DNA of 38,290 nt. It comes from an uncultured Lachnospiraceae bacterium. Lineage in GTDB: Bacteria > Bacillota > Clostridia > Lachnospirales > Lachnospiraceae. The notes beneath the pieces were generated by a model, which worked only from the letters and a program-made list of their open reading frames with translations, was not told the origin of the DNA and ran no database searches. The DNA lies in assembly GCA_946616305.1 (NCBI GenBank), contig CAMOIV010000003.1, forward strand, positions 1 through 38,290, read 5' to 3'. Shown here one piece after another: positions 9,399 to 13,200 of the stretch (within the stretch, counting starts at the first letter, position 1; each line of letters starts with the position of its first letter). Both the position numbers and the translations under genes were made by a program.

Positions 9399-9848
9399 AT
9401 GGATATAGATACAAGTTATCTGACCACACTTTCAGAACAGGCAGTTTCAAATGCCAACAGCAGGAAGATCAAGGATACCCTGTCAGGGTTATCCAAATCT
9501 GCCGCCGCAGGGGGATCCAAAGTGGATACGGCGGAGGATGAGAAGCTGCTTGATGCATGCAAACAGTTCGAAAGCTATTTCGTCGAACAGATGTATAAGG
9601 AGATGCTGAAGACCGTTCCCACAGATGAGCTGGAGAACGGATCCAATAAGATGCTGGTAGATTATTACAAGGAGAATCTTGTAAAGGAGTATGCCTCCAA
9701 GACGACTGAGCAGGAGAGCCTTGGACTGGCACAGATGCTCTATGAGCAGATGAAGAGGAATATCGGCGTCACACCCGAGGAAATAGATGCCAGGGCGGCA
9801 GAAGCCGGGGTCAATGCATCCGAAGCCAAAGATGAACAGGCAGAATAA
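9399..9848 (+). CDS. Rod-binding protein (FlgJ N-terminal domain; no muramidase domain)
   Basis: 149 aa; KLLDACKQFESYFVEQMYKEMLKTVP ... YKENLVKEYASKTTEQESLGLAQMLYEQM; position after flgG. Confidence 0.85.
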   Translation: MDIDTSYLTTLSEQAVSNANSRKIKDTLSGLSKSAAAGGSKVDTAEDEKLLDACKQFESYFVEQMYKEMLKTVPTDELENGSNKMLVDYYKENLVKEYASKTTEQESLGLAQMLYEQMKRNIGVTPEEIDARAAEAGVNASEAKDEQAE

Positions 9849-12058
9849 TGCAGCTTGCCGGCGTAATCGACCACATAATCTATTTTAAAGAAGAGAGTTC
9901 ATATACCGTTCTCATACTCAACGCCACCGACGGGGAAGCATATACCTGCGTGGGAGAGCTTCCCGGGCTTTCCCCCGGTGAGGCGGTGATCTTTGAAGGC
10001 GATTTGGCCATCAATCCCAAATACGGAGTACAATTTCAGGTTTCAGGGTTTTCATTCAGTGCCATGGATGATGAGGCATCTGTGTTAAGATATCTGTCCT
10101 CGGGCTTTGTAAAAGGCATAGGTCCGGGCCTTGCAAAAAGGATAGTGGACAGATTCGGACAGGAGACCTTCAGGATCATGGAGGAGGAGCCCGAGCGTCT
10201 TGCAGAGATAAAGGGCATATCATTGAGGATGGCCGTTTCCATGGCAAGATCCTTTGAAGAAAGGGCGGGAAGCCGCCAGGCCATCTCATTCCTCATGCAG
10301 TACAATATAAGCCCGAACCTTGGGAAAAAGATATATGACCGGTACAAAGACGAAGTCTATGAGATCATCCGCAGCAATCCATACAGGCTTATCGAGGATA
10401 TAGACGGCGTAGGCTTTGAAACTGCAGACAGGCTGGCAGAGAGGACCGGTATCGCCAGGGATTCGGAATACAGGATCAGATCCGCCGTAATATATCTGTT
10501 GTCTTCCGCCCTGGCCCAGGGAAGCGTCTGTCTGACCCGGGAGGAGCTTATGGAGCGCGCCCTGGAGATTCTTGATGTGGACAGGGATCTTATCCTTAGA
10601 CAGCTTGACAACCTGTCCGTGGAACGCAAGATCATAAGGGAAGAAGAGGAAGGGACCTCCTACATTTACGGCGAGAATGCCTATTATACGGAAGCAGAGA
10701 TCGCCAGGCTTCTTTTCGACCTTAACCTGGGGGCGGCAAAGGATGAAAAGAAGGCATATGAAGCGGTCTTAAACCTGGAGAAGCAGGAGAGGATAACCCT
10801 TGAGGATATGCAAAGAGAAGCCGTGGTGGGAGCGATCTGTGATACGGTTTCCGTGATAACAGGTGGCCCCGGAACCGGCAAAACGACCATAACAAATCTG
10901 ATAATAAGGTATTTTGAGAGCCTCGGAATGGACATCACACTGGCAGCGCCTACCGGAAGAGCGGCAAAGAGACTGTCGGAAGCCACAGGCTGTGAGGCAA
11001 AGACAATACACAGGCTGCTGGGAGCAGGGGCTGTGGCAGAAGACACGGGCAGGGCGTATTTCATGCATGACAGGGAAAACCCTCTGGAGACCGATGTGAT
11101 AATCGTAGATGAAATGTCCATGGTGGATATGTTTGTATTCAGGGCAATGATAAGAGCGATCGTTCCGGGTACCAGACTGATCCTTGTGGGAGATTCAGAT
11201 CAGCTTCCGTCCGTGGGACCCGGTGCCGTATTGCGGGATATCATAGGGGCAGGCTGTTTCAGGGTGACGAAGCTGAACAGGATATACAGGCAGTCCGAGG
11301 CCTCGGCTATAGTCCGGAATGCCCATCTGATCATAGAGGGCAGGGATGTGGACCTTGATGAGAAGAGTTCGGATTTCTTCTTTCTCGAGAGGAGCGATCC
11401 GGAACGTATCATCATGGGCATGATATATCTTGCACAGAAAAAGCTGTCGGGCCACCTTGGATGTGACCCATTGGAGATACAGATCATGACTCCCATGAGA
11501 AAGGGAGTCCTTGGGGTGGAGAATCTGAACGTGAGGCTTCAGGAGGCAATGAACCCGCCTGATCCAAAAAAGAGGGAGATCGCAACACCAAACGGGATCA
11601 TCAGAGCCGGGGATAAGGTCATGCAGATCAAGAACGATTACGAGATGCCCTGGGAGATATCTAATAAAAGAGGGATGGTGTGCGAGACGGGAACCGGAGT
11701 GTTTAACGGAGACATAGGAAAGGTACTGTCAGTCTCTTTCGATTCATGTTATGTGAGGTTCGATGATGACAGGGAGGCTGTATACAAGGGAGATGCCGTT
11801 TCGGAACTGGAGCTGGCATATGCCATAACGGTGCACAAGTCCCAGGGCAGTGAGTACAAGGGTGTGATCATACCTCTGCTTGGAGGGCCGAAGATGCTGA
11901 TGAACCGCAACCTGCTTTATACGGCAGTGACCAGGGCAAAGGAGCTTGTGTGCATCATGGGTTCGAAACAGGCTGTAAAGGAGATGATAAGCAACGAAAG
12001 AGAGGAAAAAAGATACACGGGTCTTCAGAGGCGGCTATTGGAGATCATGGGTACTTGA
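9848..12058 (+). CDS. recD2: RecD2-type SF1B DNA helicase
   Basis: 736 aa; N-terminal HhH region, Walker A VITGGPGTGKTTITN, DEMSMVD, C-terminal AYAITVHKSQGSEYKGVIIPL. Its start overlaps the preceding stop (TAATG). Confidence 0.95.
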   Translation: MQLAGVIDHIIYFKEESSYTVLILNATDGEAYTCVGELPGLSPGEAVIFEGDLAINPKYGVQFQVSGFSFSAMDDEASVLRYLSSGFVKGIGPGLAKRIVDRFGQETFRIMEEEPERLAEIKGISLRMAVSMARSFEERAGSRQAISFLMQYNISPNLGKKIYDRYKDEVYEIIRSNPYRLIEDIDGVGFETADRLAERTGIARDSEYRIRSAVIYLLSSALAQGSVCLTREELMERALEILDVDRDLILRQLDNLSVERKIIREEEEGTSYIYGENAYYTEAEIARLLFDLNLGAAKDEKKAYEAVLNLEKQERITLEDMQREAVVGAICDTVSVITGGPGTGKTTITNLIIRYFESLGMDITLAAPTGRAAKRLSEATGCEAKTIHRLLGAGAVAEDTGRAYFMHDRENPLETDVIIVDEMSMVDMFVFRAMIRAIVPGTRLILVGDSDQLPSVGPGAVLRDIIGAGCFRVTKLNRIYRQSEASAIVRNAHLIIEGRDVDLDEKSSDFFFLERSDPERIIMGMIYLAQKKLSGHLGCDPLEIQIMTPMRKGVLGVENLNVRLQEAMNPPDPKKREIATPNGIIRAGDKVMQIKNDYEMPWEISNKRGMVCETGTGVFNGDIGKVLSVSFDSCYVRFDDDREAVYKGDAVSELELAYAITVHKSQGSEYKGVIIPLLGGPKMLMNRNLLYTAVTRAKELVCIMGSKQAVKEMISNEREEKRYTGLQRRLLEIMGT

Positions 12059-12062
12059 TCTC

Positions 12063-12758
12063 CTGTTTCCCGTTAGATGCCCCTTTTGCGACGATATACT
12101 GCCCTATGGACTTAAGGGTCTGTGCTTTGACTGCAGGAGGAAGCTGAAGGAGGGTGCCCTTCTGATCGGAAGGGATCACTGCATGAGGTGCGGCAAGCTC
12201 CTGGAAAAAGGAGAGATCGAGTATTGCAGAGACTGTAAAAAGACAGTCCACAGCTTTGACAGGGGAAGAGCGCTGTATGTATATAATGATACGGTAAAAG
12301 CCGCAATAACAAGGTTCAAATTCGGCAACAGACCCGAATACGCCGGGTACTTCGGCGAACAAACGACGTCACATCTTGAGGACTTTATCATGAACAGCCG
12401 ACCCGATGCCATAGTCCCGGTGCCTGTTTCAAAAGAAAAACTGAAGCGGCGGGGATACAATCAGGCAGAGCTTCTGGCACGTCAGATATCATCAAGGACC
12501 GGGATCCCGGTGAATACATCCATGGTAACGAGAATACAGGATACTATACCCATGAAGGAGCTTGGAAGAGCGGAGCGAATGAAAAACCTTAAAGGGGTTT
12601 TCAAAGTGGGTGTTATTGATGTAGAATGTAGGAACGTCTTAGTAGTGGATGATATTTATACTACGGGCAGTACGATGGATGCTATGGCTGATGTATTAAA
12701 GCAGAACGGGGTGGAGAGAGTATTCTTTGTGACTCTGGCTGCCGGTATATCGGTTTAG
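12063..12758 (+). CDS. comF: ComF family protein (zinc ribbon plus phosphoribosyltransferase); start codon uncertain
   Basis: The ORF track begins at ATG 12183, but the same frame is open from 11991 and encodes ...VLDLLFPVRCPFCDDILPYGLKGLCFDCRRKLKEGALLIGRDHCMRCGKL..., the ComF zinc ribbon; PRTase motif NVLVVDDIYTTGSTMD. 12063 is a placeholder (CTG). Confidence 0.85.
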   Translation: MFPVRCPFCDDILPYGLKGLCFDCRRKLKEGALLIGRDHCMRCGKLLEKGEIEYCRDCKKTVHSFDRGRALYVYNDTVKAAITRFKFGNRPEYAGYFGEQTTSHLEDFIMNSRPDAIVPVPVSKEKLKRRGYNQAELLARQISSRTGIPVNTSMVTRIQDTIPMKELGRAERMKNLKGVFKVGVIDVECRNVLVVDDIYTTGSTMDAMADVLKQNGVERVFFVTLAAGISV

Positions 12759-12792: not shown

Positions 12793-13200
12793 ATGGAAGT
12801 TAAGAATTGTCGTAAGTGCGGAAGGATATTCAACTATATCGGAGGTATGCCGATTTGTCCTATGTGTAAGGAGAACCTGGAGAAGAAATTCGAAGAGGTT
12901 AAGAATTATATCAGAGAGAATCCTCAGTCAGGCATTCCCGACATCTCCAGGGATTGTGAGGTTGAAACGGGACAGATACAGCAGTGGATCCGCGAGGAGA
13001 GGCTGGTATTTGCGGATGATTCACCGGTGGGCATACCCTGTGAGAGATGCGGGACCATGATCCACAGCGGCAGATACTGTGATAAGTGTAAAGCCGAGCT
13101 GGCAAGCGGACTGAACAATTCCATAGCAAAGCCTCAGGCACCGGTCAATGAGCCCAAGAAGAACACAAGGGACAACCCGGCCATGAGGTTCTTAAGATGA
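12793..13200 (+). CDS. YvyF/TIGR03826-like flagellar operon protein
   Basis: 135 aa; two zinc-finger modules (CRKCGRIFNYIGGMPICPMC; CERCGTMIHSGRYCDKC) around a helix-turn-helix-like segment. ComFC-YvyF adjacency matches the B. subtilis comF locus. Confidence 0.8.
   Translation: MEVKNCRKCGRIFNYIGGMPICPMCKENLEKKFEEVKNYIRENPQSGIPDISRDCEVETGQIQQWIREERLVFADDSPVGIPCERCGTMIHSGRYCDKCKAELASGLNNSIAKPQAPVNEPKKNTRDNPAMRFLR

Follow-up and report, generated by a model that had tools for sequence, protein, structure and literature searches.

The comF gene described here, a DNA-uptake gene of a rumen-type Lachnospiraceae bacterium, probably starts at a near-cognate codon other than AUG, most likely the ACG at 11994-11996 within the end of recD2, and discrimination by IF3 against this codon would keep the level of ComF low. 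All positions are those of the window, the whole stretch of 38,290 nucleotides that was analysed. The observation on comF is real and not an artefact of frame reading, and its interest grows across the family.

The comF frame and its product

The following features were considered:

9848-12058, forward strand: recD2, encoding the SF1B helicase RecD2 (TIGR01448, E 3.5e-242), with an ATG start and its last 21 codons overlapping comF
11977-11983, forward strand: AAAGGAG, Shine-Dalgarno (SD)-like, its core 9 nt upstream of the ACG; of the 13 clade members tested, the window has the best SD match at this site
11994-11996, forward strand: ACG, proposed comF start codon, since 10 of 13 relatives have ATG at the aligned position and the overlap is under constraint in relatives
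11994-12058, forward strand: recD2/comF overlap in +1 relation, present in 14 of 14 genomes of the clade
11994-12758, forward strand: comF with the proposed start, 254 codons and a stop (TIGR00201, PF18912, PF00156)
12040-12063, forward strand: hairpin GGAGATCA/TGATCTCC, a perfect 8-bp inverted repeat enclosing the recD2 stop; GGAG is hidden in it, as is the first base of CTG 12063
12183-12758, forward strand: truncated comF from the first ATG, the expected output of a standard gene caller

The open frame of comF spans 11991-12758 on the forward strand and is immediately preceded by TAA (11988-11990). When the whole open stretch 11991-12183 was scanned, no ATG, GTG or TTG was found in this frame before ATG 12183, as the first-pass annotation had already read. 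The codons upstream of this ATG encode VLDLLFPVRCPFCDDILPYGLKGLCFDCRRKL, which contains the first CxxC pairs of the ComF zinc ribbons; this had also been proposed, and was borne out by the Pfam match of the double zinc ribbon PF18912 to residues 21-83 (44.8 bits against a cut-off of 27). A PRTase domain (PF00156) lies C-terminal of the zinc ribbon, and the protein matched TIGR00201 with an E value of 5.1e-35 and 121 bits, below the cut-off of 233.55. All four CxxC pairs are intact, and so is the PRPP motif VVDDIYTTGST. Thus, both hallmarks of the ComF family are found, namely the C-terminal PRTase domain with its PRPP motif and, provided that translation starts before 12078, the N-terminal Cys zinc finger.

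ATG 12183, at which gene callers were rightly expected to truncate the protein, was rejected as the comF start since both zinc ribbons would break, the third CxxC pair (CMRC) losing its first Cys as well. ComFC of Helicobacter pylori consists of a zinc finger and a PRTase domain, and its zinc-finger mutant fails in transformation, which makes ATG 12183 unlikely as the serving start, although that protein has a single four-Cys finger from residue 3 whereas the ComF of the window has two ribbons and a longer N-terminus (PMC9005727).

Downstream of comF, a YvyF-like flagellar-region protein is encoded at 12793-13200, and a gene for a FlgJ-like rod-binding protein lies upstream of recD2; recD2-comF therefore stands within a flagellar cluster.

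The recD2/comF junction in relatives

The recD2 gene ends ACT TGA and, in agreement with the earlier reading, comF is in the +1 frame relative to this stop, the recD2 frame being one base behind. The named relatives found by sequence were rumen Lachnospiraceae metagenome-assembled genomes; the genus of the window was represented by 48 genomes. Comparison of the junction, which had been suggested as a check, revealed the same arrangement in 13 genus members with ComF identities of 53-60%, in which recD2 ends within or just upstream of the VLDL region of comF in the +1 relation, so that the overlap is conserved in 14 of 14 genomes. The two nearest relatives (L002 and L003, about 60% ComF identity) share both the GGTACTTGAT junction and the +1 relation. 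A sequencing indel, one of the explanations offered at first, was consequently rejected, and the identity of these junctions also led us to discard a RecD2-ComF fusion.

The presence of the +1 relation throughout the clade might also be expected of a programmed +1 frameshift, or of transcript slippage at an A6 run directly downstream of GAGG (about 12004-12011), either of which would yield such a fusion. We regard this as extremely improbable. The codon preceding the recD2 stop varies among relatives (ACT, AAT, GAC, GCT, AGC, GGT, ATT, GAA or ATG) and the stop itself shifts in position (8, -1 and -4 relative to V1), leaving the frameshift formerly suggested at ACU-UGA unsupported. The conserved slippery codon, stop context and SD-like stimulator that characterize prfB were not found, the A-run is missing from several relatives, and in other family members comF is a separate gene with an SD of its own.

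Start codon candidates and constraint on the overlap

The idea of a non-AUG start, put forward in the first-pass annotation with CTG 12063 as an example, was retained, but not that codon. CTG 12063 has no SD at usable spacing, corresponds to the unconserved codon +4 and lies in the stable hairpin 12040-12063. This hairpin was not seen in relatives on inspection of the junction alignment, and no T-run follows its inverted repeat. ACG 11994-11996, which had been overlooked, is a better candidate. It is a near-cognate codon at the head of the open frame behind AAAGGAG, in an almost unstructured translation initiation region (-1.5 kcal/mol), and it aligns with a comF-frame ATG inside recD2 in 10 of 13 relatives. 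There the ATG is formed by the Asn codon AAT and the Glu codon GAR of a conserved Met-Ile-x-Asn-Glu, and the Asn codon AAC gives ACG in the window and in L008, L011 and L036, so that ATG and ACG are equivalent at this site. Up to four ATG/ACG changes are required on the tree, in which the window stands beside an all-ATG clade with modest fork support (84/79). AAT at the Asn codon (10 of 14, against 47% over recD2) is only slightly in excess; therefore the ATG is not clearly kept by selection, and AAT conservation was unconvincing as proof of the start. The seven-base SD match at the Asn-Glu site is unique to the window in the clade. L008, L011 and L036 have no SD match at their ACG and carry AUA at codon -4, or TTG or GTG elsewhere.

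According to the mechanism that we propose, ribosomes would be placed by AAAGGAG and the initiator tRNA would begin translation at ACG 11994-11996 within the last part of recD2, giving a ComF of 254 residues with both zinc ribbons. Most relatives keep an ATG here, from which the ACG would have arisen when AAT was silently replaced by AAC in recD2. Judging from sequence, ACG is the probable codon used in this organism.

Base 11995 could be T, restoring ATG, if a base-call or strain-mixture error had occurred. The source is contig C3 of a metagenome-assembled genome of 1.99 Mb in 156 contigs and 84.5% complete, and a search for another genome of the species found none. However, AAC is also present in three other assemblies, the estimated contamination is 0.09% and transitions are a rare kind of assembly error, which makes such an error very unlikely.

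The comF of the window might instead have lost its start and be little or not translated, in an early stage of gene decay. The window alone of the 14 genomes lacks any ATG, GTG or TTG before the first Cys, and, of 13 ComF proteins compared, its own is on average the least similar (mean identity 57%, against 58-64% for the rest). However, recD2 of the window is likewise the most divergent, 255 codons run without stop or frameshift, neither the four CxxC pairs nor the PRPP motif is damaged, and the SD at the ACG surpasses that of every other clade member. Decay is thus considered improbable.

Constraint on the comF frame within the overlap was studied by redrawing recD2 codons synonymously in each genome and calculating the probability that the comF frame stays open. 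This was 0.11-0.61 per genome, and the frame was open in all, while 13 of the 14 clade genomes had the +2 frame closed. The risk of closure is confined to comF codons -13 to -2; openness of the first 11 overlap codons, where closure is impossible, was discarded as uninformative. Upstream of codon -4 the joint probability of openness was about 2e-6 with genomes taken as independent, a value weakened by shared descent. The window has no risk positions before codon -4 and hence is uninformative for stop avoidance. In addition, recD2 codons 726-736, upstream of every later start candidate, are synonymously conserved (observed/expected 1.51, a ratio reached by 0 of 449 same-length upstream windows), Leu726 being CTT in 13 of 13 genomes having Leu. 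No synonymous constraint was detected at codons 716-725. The constraint sets in around comF codon -13, so that translation in relatives must begin at this codon or earlier, and since no candidate other than the Asn-Glu site is shared and the constraint lies upstream of the later ones, relatives would start at about that site. By extension from these relatives, the window would also start near the Asn-Glu site.

These results bear on another explanation, in which ribosomes terminating on recD2 would reinitiate close to its stop at a weak codon, either CTG 12063 or GTA 12051 behind GGAG (12040-12043), which would give a shorter N-terminus. ComF in other family members typically starts 3-10 codons upstream of the VLDL motif, in the three ACG relatives the AUA at -4 follows GGAG or a less good match, and in a further clade (L159, L305, L320, L322 and L325) comF likewise overlaps recD2 and lacks a good start. 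However, stop avoidance and synonymous conservation in relatives are located upstream of codon -4, codons +4 and 0 are unconserved and the hairpin covers the region, so that we consider reinitiation unlikely, if the most credible of the alternatives. AUA at -4 was also considered as the start of the clade; it is attractive in six relatives, but the constraint lies upstream of it and it is absent from the window.

comF starts in the Lachnospiraceae and known non-canonical starts

Among 193 distinct Lachnospiraceae comF loci, 97 had ATG with an SD match of at least 4 and 41 had GTG or TTG with SD; ATG without SD was found in 31, GTG or TTG without SD in 14, and 10 had no canonical start. These ten include L322, in which zinc-ribbon Cys residues are lost, and L321, with a long repetitive open frame and no canonical start. 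In L321 (G449, 1-230) the comF frame is open for 110 codons upstream across a tandem array with a unit of about 27 bases, AGAAAGGAAACAGCAAATATCAGTAAT. Ten of 193 comF against 0 of 46 distinct recD2 are too few to decide, and the argument rests on genera in which the pattern is conserved.

Non-canonical starts recur in the family. A canonical comF start is absent in 5 of 5 species of genus g42, in which AUA stands 7-10 nt downstream of a strong SD ranging from GGAGG to AAAGGAGG; the AUA lies at -6, -9 or -13 and shifts together with the SD at ComF identities of 55-84%, the codon being conserved as in infC. In three of the five species of genus g300, ACG follows AGGAGG or AAAGGAGG; of the other two, one has AUA (an ATG there is too near the SD) and the other possibly AUU. 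In the window's own genus, a sister species (genomes G064 and G032, the latter a near-complete assembly of three contigs) has AGGAGGT followed by ACG at -8; the two genomes are counted as one case as their comF DNA is 98% identical. Finally, AUU follows GAGGTG in G198, CUG or AUA follows AAGGAGG in G221, and AUA follows AGGAGG in G039, from another family. SD-defined starts at 188 loci were ATG (21), TTG (13), GTG (1), ATA (9), ACG (6) and ATT (6), together with 21 SD-like sequences without a near-cognate codon; therefore, single cases may be due to chance.

In a second genus group (L137, L159, L305, L320, L322 and L325), comF overlaps the recD2 end in a different frame, usable canonical starts are mostly absent and ATT is found at codon -23 in 6 of 6. 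A class-wide scan for AGGAGG followed by ATH or ACH and comF, a pattern unable to match ACG, gave mostly chance matches. One plausible comF (L272 of G756, from another family of the class) has ATA 7 nt behind AGGAGG, its start being ambiguous because of an in-frame ATG further upstream, whose SD is poor.

As positive control, all 21 genomes examined for infC had its known AUU downstream of an SD, among them the genome of the window (L247, contig C79 of G000, ATT behind GGAGG), indicating that the method recovers a true non-canonical start. As negative control, recD2 started canonically in all 30 family genomes examined; the same held for all 19 testable genomes with an unusual comF, the twentieth being interrupted by a contig end.

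The infC gene, encoding IF3, is the closest parallel. Its AUU or AUA is a conserved near-cognate start behind a strong SD, missed by gene callers. Similarly, full-length ComF of the window has no ATG, GTG or TTG, and a near-cognate ACG lies 9 nt from AAAGGAG, but the codon is not conserved in the window's clade (ATG in 10 and ACG in 4 of 14). In addition, infC is autoregulated by its own product, whereas the comF codon differs among lineages, and we know of no link between comF and IF3. ACG is a poor start codon in E. coli reporters, which speaks against the proposed start. By analogy with infC, IF3 would discriminate against the ACG of comF, and low, possibly IF3-sensitive, ComF synthesis would be the likeliest consequence.

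IF3 represses near-cognate starts in infC and in sigR of Streptomyces, whose rare GTC start keeps the protein level low (PMC5472188); for sigR the regulatory stoichiometry with RsrA is known, and nothing comparable is known for ComF. In Staphylococcus aureus, ccpN (AUA) and cvfC1 (AUU) have conserved non-canonical starts with extended SD and lowered initiation as measured with reporters, as also holds for infC AUA; these are different genes, and comF is unmentioned in the text of that study (PMC13009471). The comF pattern fits the reported compensation between strong SDs and weak start codons (PMC5622118). No report of non-canonical comF or comFC starts was found in the limited collection of literature searched.

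It is conceivable, and we propose it tentatively, that comF in the Lachnospiraceae is selected for weak starts, UUG, AUA, AUU, ACG and CUG being swapped while strong SDs are kept; DNA uptake would be set, perhaps under IF3 regulation, at this step, and ACG would be a natural, reused start. To our knowledge, very few bacterial genes start other than with ATG, GTG or TTG, and comF would join infC, pcnB, sigR, ccpN and cvfC1 among them. As the pattern recurs in many species, selection for weak initiation can readily be tested by comparison; a connection of competence with the level of IF3 is also opened to testing. Standard annotation is blind to such starts, and our results suggest that ComF of rumen and gut Lachnospiraceae is systematically truncated in databases, with loss of the zinc ribbon.
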